A DNA stretch of 64,000 nt from Sulfurimonas hongkongensis (GTDB lineage Bacteria; Campylobacterota; Campylobacteria; Campylobacterales; Sulfurimonadaceae), in assembly GCF_000445475.1 (NCBI RefSeq), contig NZ_AUPZ01000002.1, positions 124,001-188,000 of the forward strand, given 5' to 3'. This document shows positions 9,278 through 57,874 of this stretch, in pieces; positions within the stretch are counted from its first letter, which is position 1; the number at the start of each line of letters is the position of its first letter. Made by a program: the position numbers and the translations under genes. A model generated the notes under the pieces. It was given only the letters and a program-made list of their open reading frames with translations, was not told the DNA's origin and ran no database searches.

Positions 9278-10749
9278 TACAACAGCTCTTTAAGCTCTAC
9301 CAAGTTAGACTCTATACTTGTTGAAAGTTTATCTATCTCTTCTAGTATCTCACTCGTAGATGCGTACTCTATCTCTTCATATTCTATGGTTTTATAGCGG
9401 TTTATGGATAGGTCATAATCATTCTCTTTTATTTGCTGTGCATCTATAAAAAAGTGTTTTTTACTCTCTTTGTAGTCGGCTTTATCTTTAAGAGCGTAGT
9501 TTTTTATGATGTCTGGTATATCATTTATCTCTGTAACATTTCTTTTGTCATCCAAAGTGTAACCATCTGCTTGCATATCATAAAACCAGACTTTCTCTGT
9601 TGAACCACCTTTTACAAAGACAACAACAGCAGTTGAGACTCCCGCATAAGGTTTAAAGACTCCGCTTGGCATCGAGATTACAGCTTTTAGCTCGTTTTTC
9701 TCTAGTAGATTTTGTCTTAGCATCTTATGTGCGTTTGAGCTTCCAAACAAAACGCCATCAGGAATGATAACTCCACATCTTCCACCAACATCTAAAACTC
9801 TAACTATCAGGTCAACAAACAAAAGTTCTGTTTTTGTAGATGAGATGCTAAAGCCATCATTTTTATCATCTTTGTCGATGCTTCCCTTAAATGGAGGATT
9901 TGCTAAAACTACTTCGTATTTGTCTTTTTCATTGTAGTTTTTAGAGAGTGTATCTATCTGTTTTATATGCGGGTTTTGAATATCGTGGAGCATCATATTC
10001 ATCATAGATATTCGTATCATACTTATGTCGCTATCATTTCCATAAAAAGTATCATTTGAGAGTTTATCCCAAGATGCTTTGTCTGAGAGATTTGCCCCTA
10101 AAGTTCCATCTTTTTTAGTATATGGAGCTAACATGTGAGTATATGCACTTACTAAAAACCCTGCTGTTCCCACACTCGGGTCAAAAACTCTCTCGCCTAT
10201 TTGTGGGTTTACAAGCTCTGTCATCATCTGTATGATGTGTCTAGGTGTACGAAACTGTCCGTTTTTTCCGCTTGAGCTTATCTCACTTAGCAAGTACTCA
10301 TACATATCTCCCAAACTATCCATAAAACCTTTTTCATCTTTTTCTAAGATGTTAAATATCTCTTGGATGCTCTCCACAGTCTCACTAAGCAAAGATGGTT
10401 TAGTGATGATAAAAGCCAAATCTTTAAGAGACTTGTTAAACTCACTCCCCTCGTTGTAGTTTTTTATGAAAGGAAATGCTTTGTCTCGAACACTCTGCAT
10501 CATCGACTCACTATCAAGCTCGCGAAACTCATCCCATGAAGCCATCTTCTCATCTTTAAAGATAGATTCGTACTCTTCGCCAGTAAACGATGCTTGGAGT
10601 TTCTTTTGGTTATCTCTTTCACTTAGCATCTTTAAAAAGATGAGTGCACTTATCTGCTCTATGGCGTTAAGAGGGTTTGCGATGCCACCACTCCAAAACT
10701 TATTCCAGATGCTGTCTATTTTACTTTTTACTTCACTTCTTACGAACAT
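9277..10749 (-). CDS. hsdM: type I restriction-modification DNA methyltransferase subunit
   Basis: HsdM transfers a methyl group from SAM to adenine N6 in the type I site chosen by HsdS. The 490-residue protein has the N-terminal HsdM helical domain, GQFRTPRHI (164-172), SAM-binding DPSVGTAGFLV (190-200) and catalytic NPPF (284-287), all intact. It is separated from the rest of the hsd operon by a 168-base stretch holding a PIN-domain remnant, and it is the last hsd gene before dctQ. An AGGG lies just before the ATG (ATTATTTTCCCTAC on the plus strand). Confidence 0.95.
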   Translation of the reverse strand: MFVRSEVKSKIDSIWNKFWSGGIANPLNAIEQISALIFLKMLSERDNQKKLQASFTGEEYESIFKDEKMASWDEFRELDSESMMQSVRDKAFPFIKNYNEGSEFNKSLKDLAFIITKPSLLSETVESIQEIFNILEKDEKGFMDSLGDMYEYLLSEISSSGKNGQFRTPRHIIQMMTELVNPQIGERVFDPSVGTAGFLVSAYTHMLAPYTKKDGTLGANLSDKASWDKLSNDTFYGNDSDISMIRISMMNMMLHDIQNPHIKQIDTLSKNYNEKDKYEVVLANPPFKGSIDKDDKNDGFSISSTKTELLFVDLIVRVLDVGGRCGVIIPDGVLFGSSNAHKMLRQNLLEKNELKAVISMPSGVFKPYAGVSTAVVVFVKGGSTEKVWFYDMQADGYTLDDKRNVTEINDIPDIIKNYALKDKADYKESKKHFFIDAQQIKENDYDLSINRYKTIEYEEIEYASTSEILEEIDKLSTSIESNLVELKELL

Positions 10750-10775
10750 TATTTTCCCTACTTTTCATTTTTAGT

Positions 10776-10928
10776 TTATAGAAAAATCGGAAATTCCGAA
10801 TTTCTTAATCTCTTTACAATTTCTATATTTTCTTGTATAATTCTCGCAAAGTTCCCATCTACTGACAAGACTCCAAGGGAGGCTTTGCAAATTAGCGTTT
10901 GTGATAGGTAGAATGGGTCATCTTTCAT
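10776..10928 (-). pseudogene. PIN-domain (VapC-like) toxin C-terminal remnant
   Basis: Between the DUF3800 gene and hsdM, an open frame from an ATG at 10928 encodes 50 residues beginning MKDDPFYLSQTLICKA and continuing with LSVDGNF. The DPF...L(I/L)..A...LLS.DxxF pattern is the C-terminal third of PIN-domain ribonuclease toxins. The N-terminal two thirds, with the first acidic residues of the active site, are absent, so the fragment cannot be a working nuclease. It overlaps the 3' end of DUF3800 by 11 bases in another frame. No antitoxin gene is seen. Confidence 0.55.
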
Positions 10929-11898
10929 AATAACTATCCGTTCTGTCTTTTGTCATTACATCTTCATCTATTATATATTTACTGATTTTATTATAGTAAT
11001 TATCTTGTAAATGCTCATATTTTCTATATATTGCCCAACCCATATAATCAACTATCTGTAAGTTTGCACTTGATGCACTACAGTGATGAAAAATGTCATA
11101 TCTTATATTTAAGTTGTTATGTTTTATATACTCTTTAAGCCCTTTTTTTAACGCCCCTATTTGCTTTGCTTTATTTTTATGCACAGGTAGATTATCTGTT
11201 ATTATGATTATGTTGCTTGTTATGCCTATTTTATCAAGTAATCTTTGTATAGAATGGTTTAGATTGTTTATGTAAAACTTATCATTTTCTTTGCGTTTAT
11301 CGGGTGTGACTTTTGGTTTTTCAAGTATATAAGAGTAAAGTTTTACATCATTTTCATTAAATGTTGAGATGATGTTAAATAGTTCATGTTTTATAAATTT
11401 ATTGTCATTATGAGCGTGAAAACTCTCTATGTTTAATCTTTTTCCATTTAATGGGTCTAGGTTTCTCTCTAAAAGCGAATACCTATAGCTAGATATATAT
11501 TCATGTAGATTAAAGGGTCTTTTTTTTACTAAAAAGTTAAACATATAATGTTTTGAGCCATTTACTGAAAAGTCCATATCTCCTGCTTCATCTACAAATA
11601 TATAAACAGTATCATTAACTTTTTCTACAGCTCTATTGGTATCTATTGTAAAAACAATAGATGATATTTCATAATCGTAATCCGTTAGTCCATTGAAAAG
11701 CTGAATCAACAAAGATAAATCATCTTTATTTAGTTGCACAAAGTCAAGGTAATAGTTTGGATGAACAAAAAGATTTATTTCTCCGCTACTAGCATCGCTT
11801 TGATGCTCTTTGAAGTAACAATTTTCTATTTTCAAAACTAAGTCATAACGATTTTGCTTTTTAAGGATATTTTGAATTATTTGTATATAGCTATTCAT
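10918..11898 (-). CDS. DUF3800 protein embedded in the type I RM operon
   Basis: The 326-residue protein shows the DUF3800 signature: a first strand ending in YIFVDEAGD (99-107), a central IIIITDNLP, and a C-terminal HHCSASSANLQIVDYMGW segment. DUF3800 proteins are predicted RNase H-like enzymes often found near defence systems; their activity is not established. Here an extra ~95-residue N-terminal part precedes the domain. Its start overlaps the hsdS stop by 4 bases (ATGA), so it is translated as part of the hsd operon. I infer an accessory role in the restriction system, or a passenger defence gene. Confidence 0.75.
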   Translation of the reverse strand: MNSYIQIIQNILKKQNRYDLVLKIENCYFKEHQSDASSGEINLFVHPNYYLDFVQLNKDDLSLLIQLFNGLTDYDYEISSIVFTIDTNRAVEKVNDTVYIFVDEAGDMDFSVNGSKHYMFNFLVKKRPFNLHEYISSYRYSLLERNLDPLNGKRLNIESFHAHNDNKFIKHELFNIISTFNENDVKLYSYILEKPKVTPDKRKENDKFYINNLNHSIQRLLDKIGITSNIIIITDNLPVHKNKAKQIGALKKGLKEYIKHNNLNIRYDIFHHCSASSANLQIVDYMGWAIYRKYEHLQDNYYNKISKYIIDEDVMTKDRTDSYYER

Positions 11899-13085
11899 CC
11901 TATCTCTCCCTTAAAAGCTTTTTGCATCAGGCTATCGTGTAGAGTTTGTAGTGATTTTAGTTTTTTGTTCTCTTTTTCTTTTATGAGTTCTGTTTTTTCT
12001 ACTATGGATGCGAATTTGTTTTGTAGGGTTATTGGGGGTATAGATATATTGAGTTGTTTTAGAACAGGGGCTGTGATGCCTTGTATTGTAGCCCCTCTTT
12101 GTTGAGATTTTAGAACTTTTTTATAAAAATGTATAAAATAAAATATATAAATCGGTATTACATTGTCTGTGATGTTTGTTAAGGACATAATATCTTGATT
12201 ACTGCATAATTCCTCAGTGTTAATTGATACTTTTCCAACACCAACCCTTGTTCCTATAATTATAGAATTTATTGGAATTATTTTAGTAGCACTATTTTGA
12301 ATTGCTTCATTTGTAATAAATTCAACAGCATTTTTTCTATCTATATATAATTTTCCAAGTGATGTTGTAGTTATCCACGGTATATTTCCTTTAAAATATT
12401 CTGGGTTTTGTCTTGATGGCGTTCCTCCACCTTTCCATTTTCCTAGGTTTTCCAGCTTTTCAACTTCCCATTCCATAGGATTTTTTATAGGGTCACCGAA
12501 CATCTCTATGAACTTTGATTTTAAAAATAGGTCATAGTTTTTTATAAGCTTTTTTTGCTTATCTATCAAAGCCGAGCTAATATCAAGAACTTTTACAATC
12601 TTGGCTTGTTGTGGAAGTGGTGGGATTGGAATTGAAATTAATTTTATTATTGAAGTTTTTAGTGAAGGGTAAGAGTCATTATCACTAAAATTTACCATAT
12701 CCATTTTACAAAGTAATTGATATACAAATTTTCTTGTAATCTCATTCTCTAAGTATATAGCACATAAATGTGAAACGATATAAGCATCCCTTCCTAAAAT
12801 TGCTCTATGGTTGTTTTTAACAGACATCCCACTTTTAGCAAATAGAATAGTTCCACTCTTTGCAAATGTTTGTTTTGTTTCATCTAAACAAATATCATTT
12901 ATATAATCTCTAATATCTTGTAAATTATTATTAAACTTTTTATCTGATAAATCACTGACCCTTACGAATGGATAATTACCATTTTCAAAATACTTAGTAT
13001 CTTGTGGAGCTGATGAACCAGTAAATACCTTTCCTATATCTCCCAACTTCTCAACTCTCCACCCATCAGGCAATTTATCTATCAT
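11895..13085 (-). CDS. hsdS: type I restriction-modification specificity subunit
   Basis: HsdS recognises the bipartite DNA target and holds HsdM and HsdR. The 396-residue protein has two target-recognition domains: the first opens with LPDGWRVEKLGDIGKVFTG, the second with NPMEWEVEKLENLGKWKGG near residue 200. Each is followed by a helical spacer (IPPLPQQAKIVKVLD and ISIPPITLQNKFASIVE), giving the typical pseudo-dimeric layout. Both halves look complete. It overlaps hsdR and DUF3800 by 4 bases each. Confidence 0.93.
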   Translation of the reverse strand: MIDKLPDGWRVEKLGDIGKVFTGSSAPQDTKYFENGNYPFVRVSDLSDKKFNNNLQDIRDYINDICLDETKQTFAKSGTILFAKSGMSVKNNHRAILGRDAYIVSHLCAIYLENEITRKFVYQLLCKMDMVNFSDNDSYPSLKTSIIKLISIPIPPLPQQAKIVKVLDISSALIDKQKKLIKNYDLFLKSKFIEMFGDPIKNPMEWEVEKLENLGKWKGGGTPSRQNPEYFKGNIPWITTTSLGKLYIDRKNAVEFITNEAIQNSATKIIPINSIIIGTRVGVGKVSINTEELCSNQDIMSLTNITDNVIPIYIFYFIHFYKKVLKSQQRGATIQGITAPVLKQLNISIPPITLQNKFASIVEKTELIKEKENKKLKSLQTLHDSLMQKAFKGEIG

Positions 13086-15775
13086 TTACTATCTTCTTTA
13101 TCGTCTATTATTTGTACGAGTTCATTCATAAGTGAGCCTTGAAAGACTCCTTGTATTCCCATCTTGTGGAACTTTGTAAATGGGTTTTGTACTAGGTCTT
13201 TTCTCGTTATGTCATGCTTTTCTTTTACGAAGTGTTTTATGGCTTTTATGAACTCTATTTGAGTAGAGCTTAGTGAGTGGTTTTTTAAAAACTCATCAAG
13301 CAGATGCGGGAGTTTGTACTCTTTTTTGTTTATGATGCTTTGAAATATCTCTACCAAATCATCAGACTTACACTCAAACATCTCTCCTAAAACCTTAGCA
13401 TCTATCTCTTCTTTGAGCATCTCATCTTTTAGTGCATCTATATCTTCAACGCTTAGATGCAGACCTAAAAAAAGCTTCTGCAAAGTGGAACTTTCGTTTG
13501 TAAGTTTTTGTATGACCTTTAAGATATGCTCTTCATAAGCTTCTAAGTTTACGCTTAAGTGGTTTATCTCTATGTTTGTTTTACTCTTTATGGCATCTGC
13601 TAAGTCAAAGTGGTACTCTTTTGCATCTACTCTTTTAGACTTGTAAACCATAAGCGGTGCTAAGATATTTGTAGTAGCATTTGACTCCACAAAATCAAGC
13701 TCTAGCCAAAAAGTACCCTCCTCTGCCTCATCTATTAGCTCTTCTTGCATCTGTACTGCTGAGATGGTTTTTTGAAGTCTTAAAACATCGCTTACAATTT
13801 TCTCAATGGATTTTTGTAGTTTTTCATCGTCTTGGATTATCTTGTAGGTTTGTAGTTTTTTAGTTTGAAGTCTAAACCTTAACTCAGAGTAGTTTTGAAC
13901 TGTGATTCTATCAAGTAGTTTAGAGATGCTACTAAGTCGTGAGAGATTGTCATCGAACTCTTTTAAAAATGGCTCTAGCTCTGCTGAGTGCTTTTTAACA
14001 AAGTAGTCATCTTTTGGTATGGCATCTAGTTGTTGTTTAACTTCTCTTTTTATAGTCTCAAAGTTATCTCCACTTAGATTTTTTAACAGCACTAGATTTT
14101 GCTCAAAAATCTGTCTGTGAAGACTCGACTGCTCTTTTGGAGCCTCTCCACTTGGTTTTTCGTTGAAGTACTCAAAGTTAGACCAAAAGTCAAAGATAAC
14201 AAACTTCTCTTTTTTGTAATCTCCATCATAGAGTCTTGTTCCACGCCCTATCATCTGCCAAAACTTAGCTTTTGAAAAGACGGGTTTTGCAAAGACAAGG
14301 TTCATGATTTTTGGAACATCGATGCCAGTATCTAACATGCCCACAGAGATAGCTATACTAAACTTGGAGTTGTTGTTTTCATACTTATCTTTAAACTCTT
14401 TTATCAGCTCATCAGCGTTGTTAAGGTCTGAAGTTATCACTTTTGCGACCTCTGAGTTATAGTGAGGGTAAAGCTCATCAAAAAGTTTTACAAGTCTGTT
14501 TGCGTGAGGTCTGTTTATGGCAAAGATGATTGTCTTTGCTGGTAGGTTTGTCAGAGGGTTTTTGTATCCATCTTCCATAAGTGTGGTTAAGATTTTACGG
14601 TTAGTATCATCATTTTTAACCATCTTCTCAACTGCACTTCCCTCAAAGTCTATCTCACTTGCATCGTAGCCATCAACTAAAAGTCTTTCTTGTTCTTCTT
14701 TTGGTAGCATCTCAAACTTGATGCCATCAGCTAAAAAGTTTGTTTTTACATCTACAACATCATAAGGCGATAAAAACTTATCTTTTATAGCCTCTTCATA
14801 AGTGTATGCAAAAGTAGGATTTCCTCCATCGGTACCAAAAAACTTGTAAGTATCTCTATCTGCAAACTCTACTGGAGTTGCAGTAAGTCCCATCTTTATG
14901 GCATCAAACTTTAAAAAGAGTTGTCCGTAGTAGTTGTAGATGCTTCTGTGACTCTCATCTGCGATGATTAAGTCAAAGAAACCTTGGCTTATATCTGTAG
15001 TTTTTAAAAGACTCATCATAGTTTGAAAAGTTGAGACATAGATGCGTTTGTCTTTTTCAAAATTATCTGATTCTATGCGTTGTCTTGATTGGTTTGGCAT
15101 GTGTTCTTTAAAGTCATCAAAGGCTTGAGCAGCTAGTTCTCTTCTATCTGCTAAAAACAAAACTCTTTTAACTTTGCCAGCACGAAGTAAAACATCAACT
15201 AAAGAGATAACTGTTCTGGTTTTTCCTGTTCCAGTTGCCATAACCCACAAAACACTTCTTTTGTTTTCATTTAGCTCTTGGAGTGTTTTTGTAACAGCAT
15301 CTACTTGGTAGTATCTTCCTGCAATTTCTTTGTTTATAAGTTCTGGGGAGAGTTTGGTGTTGTTGTTATTTCGCTTTGAGTAAGTCTCCAAATCATCTAA
15401 AGAGTGGTAAGATAAAACTTCTCGTAAGGGATAATTTTCTGAGTCCCAAAATTCTATCTCATGTCCATTTGTTATGTAGATAAACGGAGCAAAACCTTGA
15501 GTTTTTTTTATACGCTGAGCGTAGTAATGAGCCTGTGTTTTAGCACTTCCTAGAGTTTTGTCCTCTCTTTTAGCTTCAACTATGGCGATAACTTCTCCAA
15601 CTCTGTTTATAAGAGCATAGTCTACATACCTTTTAGTTTTGTTAAAAAACTCAGGTAAATACTCATCTAGTTTTATCTCATACTCTTGGATGACTTTAGT
15701 TATGTCTTTAACATCCCAACCGCACTTATTTAACTCATCATCTATTAAATTAGTTCGCGTTTGGGCTTCATTCAT
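13082..15775 (-). CDS. hsdR: type I restriction endonuclease motor subunit
   Basis: HsdR translocates and cleaves unmethylated DNA. The 897-residue protein has an N-terminal nuclease with D52, E67 and K69 in IVEAKRED, Walker A MATGTGKT (179-186), DESH (273-276) in place of DEAD, and a helicase C-terminal half with QMIGRGTRL. All key motifs are present, so the enzyme is probably active. It is the first gene of the hsd operon and starts 8 bases after the murF stop, so it could be read from the murF operon as well as from its own promoter. Confidence 0.95.
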   Translation of the reverse strand: MNEAQTRTNLIDDELNKCGWDVKDITKVIQEYEIKLDEYLPEFFNKTKRYVDYALINRVGEVIAIVEAKREDKTLGSAKTQAHYYAQRIKKTQGFAPFIYITNGHEIEFWDSENYPLREVLSYHSLDDLETYSKRNNNNTKLSPELINKEIAGRYYQVDAVTKTLQELNENKRSVLWVMATGTGKTRTVISLVDVLLRAGKVKRVLFLADRRELAAQAFDDFKEHMPNQSRQRIESDNFEKDKRIYVSTFQTMMSLLKTTDISQGFFDLIIADESHRSIYNYYGQLFLKFDAIKMGLTATPVEFADRDTYKFFGTDGGNPTFAYTYEEAIKDKFLSPYDVVDVKTNFLADGIKFEMLPKEEQERLLVDGYDASEIDFEGSAVEKMVKNDDTNRKILTTLMEDGYKNPLTNLPAKTIIFAINRPHANRLVKLFDELYPHYNSEVAKVITSDLNNADELIKEFKDKYENNNSKFSIAISVGMLDTGIDVPKIMNLVFAKPVFSKAKFWQMIGRGTRLYDGDYKKEKFVIFDFWSNFEYFNEKPSGEAPKEQSSLHRQIFEQNLVLLKNLSGDNFETIKREVKQQLDAIPKDDYFVKKHSAELEPFLKEFDDNLSRLSSISKLLDRITVQNYSELRFRLQTKKLQTYKIIQDDEKLQKSIEKIVSDVLRLQKTISAVQMQEELIDEAEEGTFWLELDFVESNATTNILAPLMVYKSKRVDAKEYHFDLADAIKSKTNIEINHLSVNLEAYEEHILKVIQKLTNESSTLQKLFLGLHLSVEDIDALKDEMLKEEIDAKVLGEMFECKSDDLVEIFQSIINKKEYKLPHLLDEFLKNHSLSSTQIEFIKAIKHFVKEKHDITRKDLVQNPFTKFHKMGIQGVFQGSLMNELVQIIDDKEDSK

Positions 15776-47920: not shown

Positions 47921-49720
47921 TTAGAACTCTTTAGACTCAGCATTTTGAACAAATCGTCCAGCCATCTCTTTAGTTTGCGTTACTATCTCGTTTACCTCTT
48001 TTGCATTGTCTGCATTTTTCTGTGTGGTCTCCTCAAGCGTGCCAATAGTGTCGTTAATATTTGAGACTGCTTGAGACTGCTCTTGCATAGTTGAACTTAC
48101 TTCATTTATAGAACCTGTCATGATACCCACAGTTGCAGTAATTTCATTAAGACTTTTTTGTGTTTTTTCAGCAAGACTAGTCACTTCATCTGCAACTACA
48201 GCAAACCCTCTACCATGTTCTCCCGCTCGTGCTGCCTCAATAGCAGCATTTAGTGCTAAAAGATTGGTCTGATCTGCAATATCACGAATAACGCTTATTG
48301 ATGATTTAATATCCTCGGATTGGCTTACAACATTATTGGTTCTATTAACAATCTCATTTATTGCAACTGTAATAGACTCCATAATTGCTGAGGTATCTTT
48401 GAGTTTTTGTGCTTGATCTTGTGCTGAAGATGTCAATAATGTCATATTCTCAGAGAGTTTTAAAGATTGACTCTCAAGGCTATGCCCATCTTCGAGCTCC
48501 TGTTTACTAGCTTGTGAGAGAGCTTTTCCTAAACTGTTTGTACTCTCAAAAAGTTCTTTTACTCTCCCCTGTGTATCTGCTATTTCTACGGTAGCCTTAA
48601 AATTATCATTTTCATAACTCTTAAGCACTTCTAGTACTTTTTGGATATTTGTATTCATAGCATCAAGCATAGAGTTGACAATCTCTTTGAGTCTATTTAG
48701 AGATTCACTACTCGCATCTACTTCAACTCTTTTTGTCATATCGCCTTTGGCTGTTTTTGAAGCAACATCTGAGAGGTTAGCTATAAGTTTATTATCTTGG
48801 ATTATGCCATCTTCCATATTTTTTATATAGCGATTAAACTCCTGAGCTATGTCTTTAATCTCATCATTTTCTTTAATCTCTATGTGTGAACCATTTTTTT
48901 CGTTTAAATTTTTAACGCCATCTAGTAAAAGCTGCAGTTTACTTTTAAACTTTAAAGAGACGATAAGGGCTATAACTATGATTATAAATGCAATCGTAAC
49001 TAGTGTAAGCGTAAAGTTCCACATGTTATCTTTAACTTGATCTCTCATTTTTTTATTTGAGATACTTACTCCAAGATAGCCTGATACATCGCCCTCTTTC
49101 CAGTTTGTATGGCAAGCAATACAACCTTTTTCAGCTATAATTTTTTCATAAAAAGTAGAGGTATCATCTGCTTCATCTATCTTATAGGCTCTGTTATTTA
49201 TAAACTCTAAATCTCTATCTATTTCAAAGTGGCAACTGCTACATTTTTTCTCTTTATCCATCAAGGTGCTTCCATGAAATCCAGCCGACTCTTCAAGGGG
49301 TTTATCACTCCAATCTGTTCGAAGATACCTTCCATTTGTTTGTTCATAAATTTTTTTGTTTGGATTGTAAAAACCATCATCTGTGTGAACAAATGGTTTT
49401 CCGACTGTCACCTCATTCGATTTGTAATTCATGAGTCCAGATGATGCATATAAAACAGTCTCTTTTACACCTTCTAGGAGTGCTATGTTATCCATTGCAG
49501 CTTGAAATGTTTTACGCTGACCCTGCGCAAGAGAATCTTTTGAAGAGACAGTGTAGTTATGTGAAATAGCAAACCCTTTATCCTTTATCATCTCCTCAAG
49601 TTTTTCTTTTTGAAGGTAATAATTGAGTGTTATAGAGATAATGGAAATAGCTGCAACGCTAAAAACAAGAGGAAAAGAGAGTTTAAACAAGATGGTTTCA
49701 AAAAATCTTCTCTTTTGCAT
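47921..49720 (-). CDS. methyl-accepting chemotaxis protein with dihaem periplasmic sensor domain
   Basis: The 599-residue receptor has TM1 (about 10-32), a ~200-residue periplasmic domain, TM2 (about 234-256), a HAMP-type linker and a signalling domain with the tip [21 protein letters not shown]. The periplasmic part carries two c-type haem motifs, CSSCH (160-164) and CIACH (200-204), in a DUF3365/Tll0287-like context ([11 protein letters not shown]). Its ATG comes 3 bases after the stop of the hydrogenase small subunit, with AAAGGG as SD inside that gene, so it is the last gene of the hydrogenase operon. I infer that it senses the redox state set by that hydrogenase; a general redox or gas sensor is the alternative. 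Confidence 0.9.
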
Positions 49721-49723
49721 GAT

Positions 49724-50671
49724 TTACCCTTTAAACTTAAAATGTCTAAACTTTGATATAGCCCTTTTATCCTTAAAAGAGTGAAGCATAATCTGCCTTG
49801 GAAAGTGCTCACTTGCGCATCCTATACAGGGATGACCAGCTTTTATGCATGTATTTGTGTTGTTATTGTGTCCTATCGTCATACAATCATTTTTTGTAAC
49901 GGGGCCTTGACAACCAAGCTTAAGCAGACAGCCTGCATCACCAATTTTTTTTGCATAGTTTTTCTCTTGAAATTCAGAGTAGTATATGCATCTCTCATGA
50001 ACAGTTTGAGAGAAAAATCTAAGCGGTCTTCCCTCTGCATCAAGTTCTGGAATAGTTTGAAATTTTGCATAATGAAAAATTACATAAACTAGATGCTCAG
50101 GCTTCATAGGACAATTTGGCAAAGATACTATAGGTTTGTTTATTTTTTTATGTTTTGTAAATTTACCTATGGACATAACACCTGCATCCATTCCTTGCAT
50201 TCCAGTGATTCCTCCAAAGGCAGCACATGTTCCACCTGCAACGCAAGCAGAAGCACTAGCACTCATCTGTTGCATCCAATCCATAATAGGTCTATCGCCC
50301 ATCATACAAGCATGAGGCATTGCAACAGGAATAGAACCCTCTACTACTAAAAGATAATTGTCCTTTAGCTCTGTAGAAGCTTTATTTAGTATATCTGTAA
50401 CTTGTTTTCCAGTTGCTAAAGAGATGTCGGGATGGTAGATAATGTTTGTGTATTTAGTTAAAATATCAAGCACAGATACATCTTCAATATTTAAAAATGA
50501 GGTCGAACAGCCAGAGCATGAAGAGCCATGTAACCAAATTATATTTGGCTTTATCATCTTTCCTTTTTCCATAGCCATGAGGTCTTCAAGTGTGAAAAAG
50601 TTTGCTGCTCCAACGGCAGCTATTACTTTTAACATCTGCTTTATTGCATCTCTTCTTGTTAAAGTAGCCAT
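49724..50671 (-). CDS. [NiFe]-hydrogenase small subunit, no membrane anchor (second hydrogenase)
   Basis: The small subunit carries Fe-S clusters that move electrons from the NiFe site. The 315-residue protein has SCSGC (51-55) for the proximal cluster, SLPNCPMKPEH, and C-terminal ligands around VHERCIYY, LKLGCQGPVTKNDC and GHPCIGCASEHF. The N-terminus has TRRDAIK (5-11) followed by a hydrophobic run (VIAAVGAANFF), a twin-arginine-like signal without an obvious cleavage site. The C-terminal anchor helix of uptake enzymes is absent. It follows its large subunit by 9 bases, the reverse of the usual small-large order. Confidence 0.93.
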   Translation of the reverse strand: MATLTRRDAIKQMLKVIAAVGAANFFTLEDLMAMEKGKMIKPNIIWLHGSSCSGCSTSFLNIEDVSVLDILTKYTNIIYHPDISLATGKQVTDILNKASTELKDNYLLVVEGSIPVAMPHACMMGDRPIMDWMQQMSASASACVAGGTCAAFGGITGMQGMDAGVMSIGKFTKHKKINKPIVSLPNCPMKPEHLVYVIFHYAKFQTIPELDAEGRPLRFFSQTVHERCIYYSEFQEKNYAKKIGDAGCLLKLGCQGPVTKNDCMTIGHNNNTNTCIKAGHPCIGCASEHFPRQIMLHSFKDKRAISKFRHFKFKG

Positions 50672-50680
50672 TTTGTCTCC

Positions 50681-52234
50681 TTAATGAACCGAACATGCAA
50701 GACATGGATCTGTAGATCTTACTATTCTTGCCAACTCTATAGGATTGTCTGGGTCTTTGATTTTCGTATCCATTAGCATCTTCTCTACAGCACCAAGAGC
50801 TCCACTTGCGTCTTTTGGCGATATATTCCAAGTAGTAGGTACAATCATGTCGTAGTTTTTTATAAGACCTTTCTCATCCGTCTCTATCCAGTGTGCTAAA
50901 GCTCCTCTTGTTGCCTCAGTAAGTCCAAATCCAACCGCATTTTTTGGAACATCTCTCTCAACAAATGCAAGTTCATCAGGAATAACTTTGTCTGTATCTT
51001 CTAAAATTTTATCAATTATAGTAGCTGCCATAATAGCCCTGCAAAGATGTCTTCCCAAAACAGAATTATACTCTTTAAAAGTAAGCCCTAATTTTTTATT
51101 TATAGAATCCACAAGAGTATTTAGCTTTTTGTTTTTACCGCTTTTATAAGTATTTATAACTCTTGCAACCGGGCCCACTTCCATAATTTTACCTTTGTAA
51201 CGAGGCGCCCTTGACCAACTATATTTTCCGCCCTCTTTTTTCTGTTCTTCTTTAAACTCTTCATAATCTATAGGTGTTAATATTGTAGAATCGAGAGGTC
51301 TTACATTAGAGTCAGGTTTGGATTTGTAGTAGGAGTATTTGTGGTCTTCAAAGATATTTTTCAAATCAAGTTCTTCATACTTGCCATCTATTGTTGAGCC
51401 ACCTACAAAAAGATGATTTTCTCCATTTTCATCGGGCAGATATTCAAATGAGAGGTAATCTCCATATCCTGCCCCTATTTTAAAATACTCAGGAAACTCT
51501 TTTGCTACGGCTATAATATCGTTTAGGTAGTTATCTTTTATAAATTTTCTGGCACTTATTATCAAAGATCTATACTTTGCAAGTTTTCCTATAGTAGGAA
51601 TAGTTGTTACTCCACCAGCTTCGAGTGTTACAGGATGTGGTGCTTTTGCTCCAAAGATTGCAACAGCTTTTGTCAAATCAGCCATAACTCTAATAGCTTC
51701 TAAGTAGTTTTTGATTGCCGTAAAATTGGTGTTATTTCCTTTTGCGTACATTGCTTCATAGCGAGGTAAGAAAGGAGCTGCGGGAAATATTTTATTACTT
51801 TTTAATTCGTTTTGAACCCATTTTTTTACACTTAAGATGCTATCATCGTCTCCCTCATATTTCAACACCGCAGTTATATCGATAAAATCTAACGCGCTTA
51901 AAATATAAAAGTGCAATAGATGGTCTTGAAGCTGATAAGCGCCGACAATCATATTTCTTAGTAGCTGTCCATTATGATTTGGTTTTATTCCCATAGCATC
52001 CTCAAGGGCAAGAGAGGCTGCTTCAGCGTGTGCATAGGGACAAACACCACAAACTCTTTGGGTAACTTGTTGTGCAACTCTGGCATCATAACCTATGAGT
52101 GCCTTTTCGATTCCTCTATACATCTCCGCAGAACACTTAGCATCTGTAACAACCCCATCTTTAATTATTGTCTCAAATTTAAGATGCCCCTCTATCCTTG
52201 TCAGCGGATCTATCGTAATTTTCCTCTCACTCAT
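50681..52234 (-). CDS. [NiFe]-hydrogenase large subunit lacking the C-terminal tail (sensor-like)
   Basis: The large subunit holds the NiFe(CN)2CO centre. The 517-residue protein has RIEGHLKFE, the N-terminal cysteine pair RVCGVCPYAHAEA (C62, C65) and the C-terminal pair DPCLACSVH (C511, C514), after which TAA follows at once. Respiratory large subunits carry a tail beyond this histidine that a protease must cut; H2-sensing enzymes such as HupV/HoxC and some other groups lack it. The HydB protein at the window edge has that tail. This subunit is therefore not a HydD substrate. It starts with AGGGG before the ATG and is followed by the small subunit and a chemoreceptor. Confidence 0.94.
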   Translation of the reverse strand: MSERKITIDPLTRIEGHLKFETIIKDGVVTDAKCSAEMYRGIEKALIGYDARVAQQVTQRVCGVCPYAHAEAASLALEDAMGIKPNHNGQLLRNMIVGAYQLQDHLLHFYILSALDFIDITAVLKYEGDDDSILSVKKWVQNELKSNKIFPAAPFLPRYEAMYAKGNNTNFTAIKNYLEAIRVMADLTKAVAIFGAKAPHPVTLEAGGVTTIPTIGKLAKYRSLIISARKFIKDNYLNDIIAVAKEFPEYFKIGAGYGDYLSFEYLPDENGENHLFVGGSTIDGKYEELDLKNIFEDHKYSYYKSKPDSNVRPLDSTILTPIDYEEFKEEQKKEGGKYSWSRAPRYKGKIMEVGPVARVINTYKSGKNKKLNTLVDSINKKLGLTFKEYNSVLGRHLCRAIMAATIIDKILEDTDKVIPDELAFVERDVPKNAVGFGLTEATRGALAHWIETDEKGLIKNYDMIVPTTWNISPKDASGALGAVEKMLMDTKIKDPDNPIELARIVRSTDPCLACSVH

Positions 52235-52385: not shown

Positions 52386-52727
52386 CTACTCAAGCTCTAA
52401 CTGCATCAGATACATATCCTCTCCATCAAGAATATCAAGATCAACGCTGTTGCATGTAGGACAAAAATATTCTATACCCACTAAAACTGACTCCTTTAGA
52501 CAATTATTACATTTAACAATAATTTGCTGAATATTTATAACAAATTCCGCCTCTTCGCAGAGTGTTTTTTCTTTAAATATCTCAAACGCACTTCTTAAAA
52601 GTTCAGGTTCGACTCCGCTCATCACACCTATCTTGATAACAACTTTAATCACCTTTTTCGCATTGTTTTTTATTGCATTCTCTTCGCAAGAATCTAAAAG
52701 AGACTGGACTATACTATATTCATGCAT
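52386..52727 (-). CDS. hypA: hydrogenase nickel-insertion protein HypA
   Basis: HypA delivers Ni to the large subunit with HypB. The 113-residue protein starts [11 protein letters not shown] (nickel-binding H2) and has a zinc site in CNNCLKES...CPTCNS. It lies downstream of hypX, separated by the 91-bp tandem repeat, and 151 bases upstream of the second hydrogenase, so it may share that operon's transcript. The 151-base gap shows no clear promoter. Confidence 0.96.
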
Positions 52728-52775: not shown

Positions 52776-52991
52776 TTTTATCACGATATCGGAAGTAATT
52801 CCGCTATCTACGCTAACGCTTGGTTTCCTTCGGCAGGAGGCCCATCGCACTTGTGCGATTTTAATGTTTTATCACGATATCGGAAGTAATTCCGCTATCT
52901 ACGCTAACGCTTGGTTTCCTTCGGCAGGAGGCCCATCGCACTTGTGCGATTTTAATGTTTTATCACGATATCGGAAGTAATTCCGCTATCT
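52776..52991. repeat. 91-bp tandem repeat at the 3' end of hypX
   Basis: Three units start at 52776, 52867 and 52958 (period 91); the third is partial (about 34 bases). The first two are essentially identical. Each full unit contains CGGAA-GTAA-TTCCG and ATCGCAC-TT-GTGCGAT hairpins. The third unit overlaps the last 11-12 codons and the stop of hypX, so the repeat provides that gene's end. The array fills the 224-base gap between hypX and hypA. Confidence 0.9.
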
Positions 52992-54658
52992 TTGCTAACT
53001 TTCCCTCGGCACTTGTGTCTCTTAAGTCTTTCTGGTGTTTGTAGAGAACACACTTTATATACAAAATCATATCTTAGTTTATGAAAAGAGCTATCTTCTT
53101 CCCAAAACTCTCTATACATAACTCTTAACTCTTCTTCTTTTTTTTGCTCAATTTGGGAGCTGTTTTGGGATATATAATCCTCTTTTTCATATAAAAAATC
53201 ACTATAAACATCTTCATCTTCGCATAGTTTTTGAGCAAATTCGTTTAAAGATTTGAAATAATCATTATATTCAAAAACTTTATCTATCACTCCTATCTTA
53301 AGTGCTCTGTTTGCACTGATGGGCAGACACTCATTTAAAAGTTCCCCTGCTTTTTCCTCGCCAACTCTTCTTGCTAGTGAGAAAGTGTGATATTCGCTCC
53401 CACTAAGTCCCAAAGTTCTATAGTGCGGATTTAAAACAACTCCTTCTTGTGCTACTACATGGTCGCAAGAGAGTGCCAAAAAGACTCCACCCGCTCCTGC
53501 ATTTCTATGTAGAGATGCGATTGTTATAACTTCATCTGCAAAGAGAATGGACTTTACTACATCATTCATAGCATTTATATTGCTCCAACCATCTTCTCCA
53601 TGCTTTTTTGAATCTTGCAAAATATTTAGATGAATACCATTACTAAAAAAGTCCTCCCCACCCATCAAAACTATAACTTTGCAGCTCTCTTTTAGATGCT
53701 CAAACGCATATTTTAGCCTTATGCATTGCTCTGAATGCATCGCACCATTATGAAAATTAAAGTAGAGATATCCGACATCGCCTATAACTTTAGAACTAAT
53801 CTCATGAAAAGTTATATCTCCAACTTCACTAATTAGAGGTATTCGCATTTCCTTAACACCTTTTATCCTCTCTTTTAGGGCGTAGGTTGATGGAAGTTTA
53901 AATCTGCCAACCTCTTGCATATGGCTTATCCAGAGTGCGCCATCAACTGTGCCAACGCAAATTGCACCATCTCTTTTTGCGATTATCTCTTTTGGTTCCC
54001 CTCTTAAACTCTCCTCTTGCCATGCACCAAAAAGATAGCACTCTAAGCCTAAAAACTCATCTTTAACACCGGGATAACTATCACTCATATATATCTTTTT
54101 TATAATCTCTTTAGTAGTCTCTTTTTCCCAGTCTATGGCTCTATCTTGTTGTGAGAGATAGTGATGCATCTGGGATTTTAACTGTGGAGTAGGCTTAAAA
54201 TTTTTGTCTGCTAAATTTGCAAGTAACTCTTTTAGAGCCTTTGATGCAGCACGCGCTACTTCGTTTCTATAGATGGAAGCCTTGTAGGTGCCACGCATTA
54301 AAAATCTAACTTCTGCGTAAACATCTCCGCCGTCAAGCTCTTCATTTGCTCTAAGAATCACAACTCCCCACTCCTTTTTTTCCTCTCTTATGGCATGGTC
54401 TAGCGAGTTGTGACCTCTATCGCCTCTAATACCTGGATGAAGTATAAAAGTCGGAGTTTTTAAAAATATCTCTTTTGGGAGATACTTTTTGAGATAGGGA
54501 CAAAAAACAATATCTGGTGCAAACTCTTCAACGCTCTGCATCATCGCCTCACTGCTTATGGCATACTGCACGGATACTGTATGATTCATATCTCGAAGCT
54601 CACAAAATAGCCGTTGAGTAAGAGAGTTAAAAGCCGATACGATGAGTAGTATTTTCAT
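52952..54658 (-). CDS. hypX: HypX/HoxX, CO-ligand-forming hydrogenase maturase
   Basis: HypX makes the CO ligand of the NiFe centre from 10-formyl-THF under oxic conditions. From the ATG at 54658 the 568-residue protein has an N-terminal formyltransferase-like domain (HPGIRGDRGHNSLDHAI, then ELDGGDVYAEV) and a C-terminal crotonase domain (MGGEDFFSNGIHLN, HRNAGAGGVFLALSCD). A longer start at 54691 lies inside hypE and is rejected. The last ~12 residues (SGITSDIVIKH) are encoded by the tandem repeat. Its presence implies hydrogenase synthesis at least at low oxygen. Confidence 0.92.
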   Translation of the reverse strand: MKILLIVSAFNSLTQRLFCELRDMNHTVSVQYAISSEAMMQSVEEFAPDIVFCPYLKKYLPKEIFLKTPTFILHPGIRGDRGHNSLDHAIREEKKEWGVVILRANEELDGGDVYAEVRFLMRGTYKASIYRNEVARAASKALKELLANLADKNFKPTPQLKSQMHHYLSQQDRAIDWEKETTKEIIKKIYMSDSYPGVKDEFLGLECYLFGAWQEESLRGEPKEIIAKRDGAICVGTVDGALWISHMQEVGRFKLPSTYALKERIKGVKEMRIPLISEVGDITFHEISSKVIGDVGYLYFNFHNGAMHSEQCIRLKYAFEHLKESCKVIVLMGGEDFFSNGIHLNILQDSKKHGEDGWSNINAMNDVVKSILFADEVITIASLHRNAGAGGVFLALSCDHVVAQEGVVLNPHYRTLGLSGSEYHTFSLARRVGEEKAGELLNECLPISANRALKIGVIDKVFEYNDYFKSLNEFAQKLCEDEDVYSDFLYEKEDYISQNSSQIEQKKEEELRVMYREFWEEDSSFHKLRYDFVYKVCSLQTPERLKRHKCRGKVSKDSGITSDIVIKH

Positions 54659-54662
54659 CTCT

Positions 54663-55661
54663 TTAACAGATTCTAGGAAGTAGTTCGCCACTTGGAGTAT
54701 CTAAAAATCTTGAAGTTCCCCAGCTGCTCTTTAAGATAACTTTCTTTAAATGAGTATCTGTTATCTTGCCAATTGTCGTGGCTTTTAAACAACTAGGAAA
54801 TCCCTTTAATATCTCTACTGCTTTGTCTGCATCTTCCTTTTTTACAGCAAGAACAAAAGTGCCCTCATTTGCTAAAGCCGTAGCTTCAAAGCCTAACATC
54901 TCACAGATACCTTTTACTTCATCGCTTACAGGAATGCTCTCCTCTTCAACCTCAATGCAGATATTTGACTGAGAAGCCCACTCATTTAAAACTGCACTAA
55001 CACCGCCTCTAGTGGCATCTCTCAAGGCAGTTATTTTTATATTTGCATCCAAAAGAGCTTTTACTTGAGGATAAAGCGATTCACAATCACTCTTGAGTGA
55101 ACTCGTCATCTCAATCCCCTCTCGAGCCACAAAAATAGCCGCCCCATGGCATCCAATATCACGGTTTACTATGATGATATCATCCTTGCTTATGTTGTTA
55201 GAACTGATACCTTTTTTTATAACTTCACCAATTCCGCTAGTGTTTATAAAAATCTTATCAACACTCCCACGAGGCACAACCTTAGTGTCACCACTCACAA
55301 CAATAGCCCCGTTAATCTCAAGCTCTTTTTTCATACTTCGCACGATTTTATCTAGCTCTCTTGTAGCAAAACCCTCTTCAATAATCACACTACAAGTAAG
55401 ATATTTAGGCTTCGCACCCATCATAGCTAAATCATTACAAGTCCCACAAACAGCAAGTTTACCGATGTCCGCTCCTGCAAAAAAGAGAGGCGAGACCGTA
55501 AAGCTATCAGTAGAAAACGCAAGTTTTCCATTATGAATAATAGCCGCATCTTCACTTTTTTCTAGTATCTCATTTTTAAAAGCTTTATAAAAAACTTTTG
55601 AGATAAGTTCATTATTTTCCTCTCCACCGTTTCCACAAGCTAAGCTTATTGTTTTGTTCAT
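54663..55661 (-). CDS. hypE: hydrogenase maturation protein HypE
   Basis: HypE turns carbamoyl groups received from HypF into the cyanide ligands on its C-terminal cysteine. The 332-residue protein starts with the PurM-like fold (SLACGNGGEENNELI, then GADIGKLAVCGTCNDLAMMG) and ends in LLPRIC, keeping the essential last cysteine. The start overlaps hypD by 4 bases. Confidence 0.97.
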   Translation of the reverse strand: MNKTISLACGNGGEENNELISKVFYKAFKNEILEKSEDAAIIHNGKLAFSTDSFTVSPLFFAGADIGKLAVCGTCNDLAMMGAKPKYLTCSVIIEEGFATRELDKIVRSMKKELEINGAIVVSGDTKVVPRGSVDKIFINTSGIGEVIKKGISSNNISKDDIIIVNRDIGCHGAAIFVAREGIEMTSSLKSDCESLYPQVKALLDANIKITALRDATRGGVSAVLNEWASQSNICIEVEEESIPVSDEVKGICEMLGFEATALANEGTFVLAVKKEDADKAVEILKGFPSCLKATTIGKITDTHLKKVILKSSWGTSRFLDTPSGELLPRIC

Positions 55662-56800
55662 CTCAAATTCCCATACTTATAGTAAGCTGCACAAGCACCC
55701 TCGCTGCTTACCATACAGCTTCCTATCGGGCTTGTTGGTTTACATGCAGTTCCAAAAATGGTACATTCTGGTGGGTTTGCCATTCCTCTTAGTATGTCTC
55801 CGCAGATGCATAGTTTGTGGTCTTCTATCTCGCCTATTGGCAAAATATCTTTGTAGATAATCTCTGCATCGTACTCTTTAAACTCAGGCTTTAGTTTTAG
55901 TCCGCTTTTTGGAATATTGCCTAAACCACGCCATTTAAATAGATCTCTTTTGTCAAAATATCTCTCTATTAACTCTTGAGCTTTTAGGTTTCCATCATAA
56001 GTTACTAACCTTTTGTACTCAATCTCAAGTTCGCATCTGCCCTCTATAAACTGCTTGACTATCATGCTAATTGCCTGCATCACATCAACTGGTTCAAAGC
56101 CTGAGACAACTACTAGGCGGTTGTAATCTCTTGGAAACTCTTCATATATCTTACTACCGCTGATAACGCTCACATGAGATGGCCCTAAAAATGCGTCTAT
56201 TTTGTTGTTGTAACTATCTACATGTTCATCTCTTGAGTCGATTAACTCGCGCATTACTTCTGGAACTGTTACATGGTTTATGTGAAAAAAGATATTTTTT
56301 ATATCTTTTTTTATAACCGCATCAAGAAGAGCCGCTGTCATTGGAGTTGTCGTTTCAAATCCTATGGCAAAAAAGATGATTTTTTTAGTTGGGTTTTCAT
56401 TTGCGATTTTTAGACACTCTAAGGGAGAGTAGACAAAACGAACATCCGAACCTCTGCTTCTTGCATCTTGGAGGCTTCCATTGCTTCCTGGGACTTTTAT
56501 CATGTCGCCTAGAGTTACTAAAATCACATCTTCTACCATGCTCAAAACATAGGCGTGATCTATGCGCTCTTTTGGCATGATACAAACAGGACAACCCGGA
56601 CCATGGATAAACTTGATGTTTGATGGTAAGAGCTGTGGAAGTCCGTATTTCATGATGGTGTGCGTATGTCCACCACAAACTTCCATGATATTTATCTGGT
56701 TTTTAAGTTTTTTGGCATCTTCTTTTATGATTTTTGCATAGGCTTTTATGGTGTTGCCATCTCTAAAATCATCATAAAGATTTTTTAGCTCTAACCCCAT
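55658..56800 (-). CDS. hypD: hydrogenase maturation protein HypD
   Basis: HypD, with HypC, assembles the Fe(CN)2CO unit and holds a [4Fe-4S] cluster. The protein has VCGGHTHTIMKYG, HGPGCPVCIMP, GFETTTP and the cysteine-rich C-terminus LCICGDILRGMANPPEC...GACAAYYKY. I choose the ATG at 56800 (TGAGATG junction with hypC, with AGGAG just upstream), giving 380 residues; an ATG at 56827 adds nine and overlaps hypC. Confidence 0.96.
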   Translation of the reverse strand: MGLELKNLYDDFRDGNTIKAYAKIIKEDAKKLKNQINIMEVCGGHTHTIMKYGLPQLLPSNIKFIHGPGCPVCIMPKERIDHAYVLSMVEDVILVTLGDMIKVPGSNGSLQDARSRGSDVRFVYSPLECLKIANENPTKKIIFFAIGFETTTPMTAALLDAVIKKDIKNIFFHINHVTVPEVMRELIDSRDEHVDSYNNKIDAFLGPSHVSVISGSKIYEEFPRDYNRLVVVSGFEPVDVMQAISMIVKQFIEGRCELEIEYKRLVTYDGNLKAQELIERYFDKRDLFKWRGLGNIPKSGLKLKPEFKEYDAEIIYKDILPIGEIEDHKLCICGDILRGMANPPECTIFGTACKPTSPIGSCMVSSEGACAAYYKYGNLR

Positions 56801-56801
56801 C

Positions 56802-57092
56802 TCACTCTCCTCTATTTGGACACTCATCCGCCTCTAAAATCGCCATCTGCCGATCCTCTTCGTTCATCGCATCTATGATTTCTTTGTAAATTTCCAAACT
56901 ATCTAGCGCCTCGGCTTCATCGATTTTGTTCATCACAAACCCAATATGCAAAAGTACATAGTCACCTATTTTAATATCCTCTTGGCTCATAAGCGACAAA
57001 GAAGCCTCTCTTTGTACGCCCATAGTATCAACTGTTGCTACTTCATTTTCTTTATCTATCTTAACAACTTTACTTGGAATAGAGAGGCACAT
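56802..57092 (-). CDS. hypC: hydrogenase maturation chaperone HypC
   Basis: The 96-residue protein begins MCLSIPSKVVKI with the conserved Cys2 that binds the iron-ligand complex, followed by GDYVLLHIGFVMNKIDEAEA. It shares one base with the hypB stop and precedes hypD in the tight hypBCDE run. Confidence 0.96.
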   Translation of the reverse strand: MCLSIPSKVVKIDKENEVATVDTMGVQREASLSLMSQEDIKIGDYVLLHIGFVMNKIDEAEALDSLEIYKEIIDAMNEEDRQMAILEADECPNRGE

Positions 57093-57874
57093 TATCTCAT
57101 CCCCATTTTAAACTTAATCCAAGAAGCCACTTTTTTGATACTCTCTTCATCTTTTATGCTAACCTCAAGTATGTCTACACTTGGTTTTAATGCTCTTGCC
57201 ATCTCTTTTTCTTTTTGCATATCGTACTCAAAATACGGAAGTAGATCTGTTTTAGTAAAAAGTATCAAGTCTGCTTGACGAAACATCACTGGATATTTTG
57301 CAATTTTATCTTCACCCTCTGGGATGCTCACAAGAACTACATTTAAATGACTCCCAACATCATAACTAGCAGGACAAACAAGGTTCCCAACATTTTCTAT
57401 AAAACAGACATCTACACTATCTAAGTCCATATGATGCAGAGCTTTGTGAACCATAAATGCATCTAGATGACAAGCTGAACCAGTTTGAATCTGATGGGCT
57501 TCTATCCCTTTTGCTTTTAATCTATCTGCATCTCTACTTGTCTCTAAGTCTCCCTCAATTACAGCAAATTTAAACTCGCCTACATCCACCAAAGCCTCAA
57601 GTAGAGCCGTTTTTCCACTTCCTGGAGAACTCATCAAGTTTATACAAAGAACACCATGAGAGTTAAAATGCTCTCTATTATGTCCTGCTTCTTGATCATT
57701 TTTATCTAAAATTTTTGTAATTACAGAGATAGTTTTAGGGTCGTTTAACTGGGGATTATCATATAGATGAGCATGAGCGCTCTGATGTTCATGAGAACCC
57801 TCGTGATGGTGGTCTCCACTATGGTCATGAGAGTGACTATGTTCTACAATTGAGCAACCGCAATCTTTACACAT
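57092..57874 (-). CDS. hypB: hydrogenase nickel-incorporation GTPase HypB with His-rich N-terminus
   Basis: The 260-residue GTPase drives nickel insertion with HypA. The N-terminus has the CKDCGC nickel site (2-7) and then a histidine-rich stretch (HSHSHDHSGDHHHEGSHEH), suited to nickel storage. The P-loop is SSPGSGKTAL, followed by EGDLETSRDAD and the dimer/nickel-site CHLDAFMVH and VGNLVCPASYD. It is first in hypBCDEXA and preceded by a candidate operator and a repeat. Confidence 0.97.
   Translation of the reverse strand: MCKDCGCSIVEHSHSHDHSGDHHHEGSHEHQSAHAHLYDNPQLNDPKTISVITKILDKNDQEAGHNREHFNSHGVLCINLMSSPGSGKTALLEALVDVGEFKFAVIEGDLETSRDADRLKAKGIEAHQIQTGSACHLDAFMVHKALHHMDLDSVDVCFIENVGNLVCPASYDVGSHLNVVLVSIPEGEDKIAKYPVMFRQADLILFTKTDLLPYFEYDMQKEKEMARALKPSVDILEVSIKDEESIKKVASWIKFKMGMR

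Follow-up and report, generated by a model that had tools for sequence, protein, structure and literature searches.

In the available text of the HydDB classification, [NiFe]-hydrogenases of group 2b are tied to histidine kinases and those of group 2c putatively to diguanylate cyclases, and the [FeFe]-hydrogenases of group C2 are listed as 'Chemotactic (putative)', with methyl-accepting chemotaxis proteins (MCPs) as their proposed targets (PMC5037454). The regulatory hydrogenase is described, in the accessible part of a second paper, with three [4Fe-4S] clusters, and the electron acceptor of HoxBC, the known [NiFe] H2 sensor, which signals to a histidine kinase, is called unknown there (PMC5665086). 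On the receptor side, Geobacter has one-haem MCP sensors in which a redox change alters the ligation of the haem, at -156 and -251 mV, according to the available portion of their description (PMC8396549). The authors of a study on Fibrobacteres cite, in the text at hand, the idea that sensory hydrogenases help cells orient in H2 gradients (PMC4704652). In sulfidic and vent habitats, H2 ranks among the major electron donors, and little is known of how bacteria find it. Here, we analysed a window (the whole stretch of 64,000 nucleotides under study) of the Sulfurimonas hongkongensis genome (contig NZ_AUPZ01000002.1, positions 124,001 to 188,000), in which three consecutive genes encode the large and small subunits of a [NiFe]-hydrogenase without a C-terminal tail on its large subunit, and a chemoreceptor with two CxxCH haem motifs.

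We found that this hydrogenase-chemoreceptor triplet is a real, conserved module. The three genes probably form one sensing unit, in which the hydrogenase would serve an energy-taxis receptor as the subunit that detects H2. More specifically, and with somewhat less confidence, we propose that the periplasmic tail-less [NiFe]-hydrogenase passes H2 electrons straight into the two-haem chemoreceptor, H2 flux being sensed by electron transfer and not by ligand binding; we give this reading a rough probability of 0.57. The initial annotation of the locus knew of no described direct coupling of a hydrogenase to a chemoreceptor. This holds for [NiFe] enzymes, for which no such unit was found in the literature searched (subscription papers lay mostly outside its coverage), and has to be qualified for hydrogenases at large by the link proposed for [FeFe] group C2. 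The available table of a neighbourhood study counts, without comment, 87 MCP genes among neighbour clusters that are apparently those of [NiFe]-hydrogenases (PMC12727194).

The hydrogenase-chemoreceptor triplet recurs in two phyla

The three genes run from 52234 to 47921 on the reverse strand (positions are those of the window) and are transcribed in the order large subunit, small subunit, receptor (Table 1). They are separated by gaps of 9 and 3 bases, and the sequence AAAGGG, a possible ribosome-binding site for the receptor, sits in the final codons of the small-subunit gene; the consecutive order, the gaps and a receptor Shine-Dalgarno sequence within the hydrogenase gene had all been noted in the initial annotation, with which the coordinates agree. 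The host genome measures 2.30 Mb, and the nearest named copies of the large subunit come from Sulfurimonas metagenome-assembled genomes (MAGs; 93%).

Table 1. Coordinates of the triplet, its domains and motifs, and the nearby maturation genes in the window
Feature	Position	Strand	Extent	Family matches and remarks
Tail-less [NiFe]-hydrogenase large subunit	50681..52234	-	517 aa	PF00374, E 1.3e-137
Hydrogenase small subunit	49724..50671	-	315 aa	PF01058, PF14720; TIGR00391 above cut-off
Twin-arginine leader of small subunit (predicted)	50573..50671	-	~residues 1-33	cleavage point is a guess
Methyl-accepting chemotaxis protein	47921..49720	-	599 aa	PF00015, E 4.8e-33; PF00672
Periplasmic sensor domain (predicted)	49031..49630	-	~residues 31-230	single-Cache-like fold, two CxxCH
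First CxxCH (CSSCH)	49229..49243	-	residues 160-164	missing from the one-CxxCH relatives examined
Second CxxCH (CIACH)	49109..49123	-	residues 200-204	common to one-CxxCH sensors
MCP signalling domain	47963..48370	-	residues 451-586	
hypA-like gene (presumed)	52386..52727	-		151 bases upstream of the large subunit
HypX/HoxX-like gene (presumed)	52952..54691	-		fused formyltransferase and enoyl-CoA hydratase domains; PF00551, PF02911, PF00378
hypE, hypD, hypC, hypB	54663..57874	-		TIGR02124 (hypE) and TIGR00073 (hypB) above cut-off

A search for the same gene order in other genomes, as the initial annotation had advised, revealed that it is not unique to this one. Pooling protein, profile and contig-collection searches gave 17 distinct loci with a complete tail-less pair; the genome samples comprised 60 relatives, 397 Campylobacterota, 369 genomes of the class of L044 (a gammaproteobacterial MAG), 378 of its phylum and 48 of the class of G915. 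A two-CxxCH receptor lies downstream in 15 of the 17, in both Campylobacterota and Pseudomonadota (the window, L040-L044, L052, L053, L056-L058, L108, L109, L112 and L113). The receptor of L109, counted among the 15, was seen for its first 302 residues, which hold the sensor and no signalling domain; L041 appears to be the same locus as G004 of the 60-relative protein search (identical coordinates); and a contig-end fragment that holds just the beginning of a large subunit of this family (L104/L010, genome G054) was excluded from the 17. With the large-subunit profile, the tail-less family was found in 8/397 Campylobacterota genomes, in 3/369 genomes of the class of L044 and in 3/378 of its phylum, one of them overlapping the former set. 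The protein search found it in 4/60 relatives, one being a contig-end fragment, and the contig collection yielded five loci. In the class of G915, tail-less large subunits occur in 2/48 genomes, and the 14 other matches listed all carry tails.

Gaps within the triplet are usually short, 9-34 bases for the first and -1 to 21 for the second (exceptions L109, L112 and L113), and the genes flanking the module differ among most loci. Moreover, all three genes are under purifying selection, with ratios of non-synonymous to synonymous substitution (dN/dS) of 0.045-0.104 where estimable against five near relatives; these are rough values, since dS exceeds 1 or could not be estimated in several of the 15 comparisons and is high or saturated for the more distant of these relatives. 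In view of the recurrence in 15/17 loci and of these dN/dS values, we rejected chance neighbours or an annotation artefact. Plasmid cargo was also rejected: 140 plasmid records match the large subunit, none with at least 60% identity, and the best among the matches listed reaches 34.8%, in a search that did not extend to the tails of these plasmid sequences or to phages. The correlation between hydrogenase and sensor distances (r 0.96, 91 pairs) was not used as evidence, because the signalling tip reaches 0.91 as well and both values can be put down to shared ancestry.

Fifteen of the tail-less rows cluster in a single group (100/100) of the large-subunit tree, with L054 and L055 nested within it; L112 and L113 split off on a weakly supported fork (92/56), so the 17 may not all belong together. 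Because L054 and L055 are nested inside this group, their lineage seems to have lost the receptor. In both, the pair comes after a DMSO-reductase-family molybdenum enzyme, an iron-sulphur (FeS) subunit and a TorD-like chaperone (families run for L055), a cluster that is perhaps an H2-driven periplasmic reductase. Since the pair adjoins an FeS-bearing molybdopterin oxidoreductase there, this suggests that the tail-less pair exports electrons to a periplasmic partner. A DsbI-like gene was seen near the molybdenum enzyme-hydrogenase cluster in both loci (L054:5910-11978, L055:2751-8803). The initial annotation had taken the missing tail as a hallmark of H2 sensing, a generalization that this lineage, with its tail-less pair beside a molybdenum oxidoreductase and no receptor, contradicts.

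That the pair of L054 and L055 adjoins an enzyme and not a receptor would also fit an ordinary soluble uptake hydrogenase, feeding a quinone-reactive cytochrome b or periplasmic cytochromes, with the receptor as an adjacent gene product that monitors the overall redox state (energy taxis) and does not touch the hydrogenase. Similar roles have been argued in the available text of two Nautilia papers: the authors on strain PV-1 suggested that the Hyd-1 subunits on HynC are replaced by a periplasmic pair of the non-selenium type encoded next to Hyd-1 (PMC10092268), and those on N. profundicola described a second, anchorless pair as a NiFeSe uptake enzyme that is soluble and periplasmic (PMC2628731). 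Judging from gene layout and hydrogenase inventory, the pairs of L056 and L057 are probably those of the Nautilia papers, and the L056 layout fits the PV-1 locus. However, the usual neighbour of the pair is a receptor (15/17) and not a cytochrome b, the small subunit in the window lacks a C-terminal anchor, and a PF00374 search of the module-bearing genomes G246, G435, G438 and G915 yielded no large subunit of the tailed group-1 type. An extra CxxCH confined, among the sensors examined, to hydrogenase-linked receptors and one orphan also speaks against a mere neighbour, and we consider the uptake explanation unlikely.

The tail-less hydrogenase is predicted to be periplasmic

The stop codon of the large subunit directly follows DPCLACSVH, so that H517 is the final residue, as the initial annotation had it, and no residue past the H517 equivalent occurs in any of the 17 tail-less large subunits. 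A C-terminal extension is present in the other group-1-like large subunits read (sets of 26 and 14, plus HoxG and HydB). The sole Pfam match of the protein is to the [NiFe] family PF00374, and none was found to an [FeFe] H-cluster family. Cysteines C62, C65, C511 and C514, which we take to be the Ni ligands, are all present. For both subunits, the best sequence matches in the PDB are periplasmic group 1 [NiFe]- and [NiFeSe]-hydrogenases of Desulfovibrio. The small subunit scored 201.8 bits against the TIGR00391 cut-off of 179.5. The score for NF033181, the equivalog for group 1 [NiFe/NiFeSe] enzymes, remained below its cut-off (531.1 of the 600 bits required).

The N-terminus of the small subunit reads MATLTRRDAIKQMLKVIAAVGAANFF and can be aligned to the N-terminus of the Desulfovibrio chain 2wpn_A. 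Its leader arginines R6 and R7 are invariant in seven aligned small subunits, and an RR pair is present in all 15 triplet small subunits. A C-terminal anchor is absent from the protein in the window, in which the best 19-residue Kyte-Doolittle window past residue 150 scores 0.81. The twin-arginine-like N-terminus and the missing anchor that were initially annotated are thus both confirmed, and the leader predicts export of the small subunit and a periplasmic hydrogenase. A cytoplasmic small subunit, which according to the initial annotation could not meet the periplasmic haems, is not what the leader points to.

The ligand sets for three FeS clusters, as we assume their roles to be, are complete in the small subunit and include a fourth medial cysteine (C275), at a position that is proline in HoxK and in HydA of the host and cysteine in HoxB. 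The 12 FeS-ligand positions and the four Ni-ligand cysteines are identical in 17/17 tail-less pairs. At the two gas-channel positions (D. fructosovorans V74 and L122), the tail-less large subunits have V (C in 4/17) and L (17/17), and HoxC has I and F. Cys takes the place of Val just ahead of the second Ni-site cysteine (CGCC for CGVC) in L053, L056, L057 and L058 only, of the 17 loci.

The tail-less end and the four-cysteine medial site resemble HoxB/HoxC, which raises the question of whether the hydrogenase signals by protein contact, through a conformational change such as is supposed for HoxBC and its kinase, with the haems serving another input, for example O2 or redox potential. That the acceptor of HoxBC is called unknown, in the text available, is in keeping with such a route (PMC5665086). 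However, the tail-less pairs have kept the whole FeS exit path and receptor haems are at hand, and the gas-channel residues (V, or C in four, and L) are as in HoxG and HydB rather than the I and F of HoxC, making signalling by contact very improbable in our estimate.

Hydrogenase-linked receptors carry an extra haem motif

The receptor scored 114.9 bits with PF00015 (cut-off 34.6) and likewise passed the Pfam cut-off for PF00672, and its signalling tip is intact. Hydrophobic 19-residue windows begin at residues 6-19 and 230-248, and both CxxCH motifs lie between them, in accordance with the two-motif periplasmic domain and intact tip reported initially. An AlphaFold2 model of the sensor (mean pLDDT, the model's per-residue confidence, 80, lower near residues 131-160) resembled WalK (4ywz_B; Z 10.6, root-mean-square deviation 3.2, 134 residues), a single-Cache likeness. 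GSU0935 (3b42_A) came only at Foldseek rank 47 (E 0.2) against this model; Tll0287 was not among the 50 structure matches listed, which excludes nothing. The haem-Cache family PF11845 (DUF3365/Tll0287) did not reach its gathering score on the sensor (9.3 vs 24.1 bits), and a PDB profile search with the sensor gave weak cytochrome matches only, the best to cytochrome c3 (E 0.087).

We then asked how closely this sensor is associated with the hydrogenase. A sensor profile matched 55/397 Campylobacterota genomes at 1e-4, only seven of them strongly (E<=1e-41; next best 2.9e-7), and a hydrogenase adjoins the receptor in six of these seven. As a control, a sensor-profile search found no sensor in the flanks (up to ~1.5 kb) of 40 tailed-hydrogenase loci, with the caveat that the positives of this search include the profile's own source sequences or near copies. 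Two CxxCH motifs are present in all 15 hydrogenase-linked receptors, and a single one, at the position of the second motif, in all 23 weaker sensor matches with a locus returned. The sensors of L112 and L113 also have two CxxCH and appear homologous to the remaining sensors in a single profile comparison (hhalign probability 98.3, E 1.2e-14). Overall, among the sensors examined, the extra CxxCH is limited to hydrogenase-linked receptors and one orphan. This orphan two-CxxCH receptor (G058:C23, L101:7269-9041) is followed by a PAS-like gene, with no hydrogenase pair.

A haem sensor of this kind might instead detect NO (or CO), with the hydrogenase holding the haems ferrous for gas binding and H2 acting as reductant rather than signal. 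Relatives of the host often denitrify. In addition, the available text on Geobacter sensors reports binding of NO and of a second diatomic gas (PMC8396549), and a signalling-associated haem-Cache domain bound NO tightly according to the portion of its description at hand (PMC12889525). Against this, a dedicated hydrogenase would be a costly reductant, one-CxxCH sensors manage without one in their immediate loci, and the extra CxxCH is better explained by electron entry than by gas binding. Gas sensing of this type thus seems to us a rather improbable account of the module.

A model for H2 sensing by electron transfer

In the model that we favour, direct electron transfer from the hydrogenase to the receptor, the Tat (twin-arginine translocation) system would let the small subunit carry the large subunit to the periplasm, the large subunit would require no C-terminal cleavage, H2 would be split at a Ni-Fe site with intact ligands, and electrons would exit via three four-ligand clusters, the distal one His-ligated; these steps are read from the protein sequences. 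From the distal cluster, electrons may then reach the extra c-type haem at the first CxxCH of the receptor and move on to the second haem, which is placed as in one-haem sensors and may shift its redox and ligation (or spin) state. The Cache-like domain would move in response, and HAMP and the signalling tip would alter CheA and the flagellar motor. The H2/H+ potential is about -414 mV at pH 7. Because the -156 and -251 mV of Geobacter-type haems lie above it, H2 could reduce such haems. H2 is likelier to be an attractant than a repellent in an H2-using chemolithotroph; the sign of the response is not readable from sequence. CheA was found in 16/16 genomes searched (G845 and G915 lie outside that set) and FliG in 18/18, both sets including G058, G110 and G387, which have no triplet. 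Taken together, the hydrogenase-receptor module of the initial annotation holds up in its conservation, its periplasmic location as predicted by the leader, its complete ligands and the presence of CheA and FliG; electron transfer to the receptor haems and H2 taxis are inferred.

Several observations weigh against this model. In G058 the receptor stands alone, and the 361 bases that remain before the contig ends contain no remnant of a small subunit, and L054 and L055 have a tail-less pair without a receptor. Gaps widen to between 74 and 281 bases in L112 and L113 and to 275 between small subunit and receptor in L109 (for the start used). Several of the loci come from draft genomes or MAGs. 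Beyond near relatives, sensor identity drops to 19-36%, below the 43-64% of the large subunit, and no second axial haem ligand is invariant across 14 aligned sensors (M97 is present in 13/14). The presence of CheA and FliG is no proof that signals from this receptor reach the flagellar array. Two Geobacter proteins, GSU0591 and GSU0599, are named with two haem motifs in the available text (PMC8396549), and the sole signalling-associated haem-Cache domain tested behaved like an NO sensor in what is accessible of that work (PMC12889525).

If correct, the model would describe the first [NiFe]-hydrogenase-chemoreceptor system and an H2-taxis mechanism spanning two phyla, in which receptor function is divided between a detecting enzyme and a signalling haem protein. 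The Nautilia pairs discussed as uptake enzymes, probably the same pairs, would gain another possible role. Moreover, the haems of the presumed acceptor are covalently bound and have visible spectra, which would allow the passage of electrons from sensor to receiver to be followed directly.

Neighbouring genes and other hydrogenases of the host

Upstream of the large subunit lie maturation genes (Table 1). The nearest is presumably a hypA-like gene for Ni insertion, named from its sequence and not by a family search; the next we take to be a HypX/HoxX-like maturation gene, and hypC and hypD within the following cluster are likewise our assignments. The hypE/D/C/B genes are presumably common to the module and the uptake hydrogenase. 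HypX/HoxX-like genes near the module were also seen by eye in L040, L041 and L044. Farther upstream on the same strand, past hypB, follow hypF, a maturation protease and the membrane-bound uptake hydrogenase HydABC; several of the gene names in this region are assumed rather than searched for.

The host genome has three further PF00374 large subunits: the tailed HydB, a cytoplasmic tail-less one and a Hox-type enzyme. The cytoplasmic tail-less one belongs to a pair (L038:6309-8442, genome G000, outside the window) that lies just upstream of HydAB beside a TetR-like regulator; its large subunit ends in FDVCSVCTTH, and its small subunit has altered cluster ligands. Pairs placed like this one are called H2-sensing in the available text of the Nautilia papers (PMC10092268, PMC2628731). 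Elsewhere in the window, 9277-15775 (-) holds type I restriction-modification-like genes (judged by eye, no family search), with a 326-aa open reading frame (10918-11898) between the specificity and methylase genes.

Comparison with known systems

The regulatory hydrogenases HupUV/HoxBC (HydDB group 2b), with HoxC of Cupriavidus necator pHG1 as our reference, share with the module the absence of a C-terminal tail and four medial-site cysteines, unlike HoxK and the HydA of the host. They differ in most other respects. The small subunit of the module has an export leader and HoxB has none, V or C and L occupy the gas-channel positions in place of the I and F of HoxC, the partner is a chemoreceptor (the next gene is an MCP in 15/17 loci) instead of a histidine kinase, and the large subunit is encoded ahead of the small one, the reverse of the HoxB-HoxC order. 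In the large-subunit tree, which contains a single HoxC reference and flagged long branches, a 100/99 branch separates HoxC and the cytoplasmic large subunit of the host from the 17 tail-less and 28 tailed rows. Leader, gas channel, partner and tree together rule out membership of HupUV/HoxBC.

The periplasmic group 1 hydrogenases of Desulfovibrio are alike in leader, missing membrane anchor and full set of relay ligands. The module differs from them in its tail-less large subunit and in having a receptor as neighbour, where their partner is presumably a multihaem cytochrome. The [FeFe] group C2 offers the parallel of a hydrogenase tied to a chemoreceptor, compared here by its HydDB entry; its active site and protein family are unrelated to those of [NiFe] enzymes. 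To our knowledge, the c-haem chemoreceptors GSU0582 and GSU0935 of Geobacter and DcrA of Desulfovibrio have no co-encoded hydrogenase. Together with the haem-Cache (DUF3365/Tll0287) sensors, they share with the receptor described here a CxxCH domain in the periplasm, predicted here to be Cache/PAS-like, HAMP and MCP output, but they have one haem, whereas the module combines a second CxxCH with a hydrogenase encoded beside it; for the Geobacter pair, a redox-linked switch has been described (PMC8396549).

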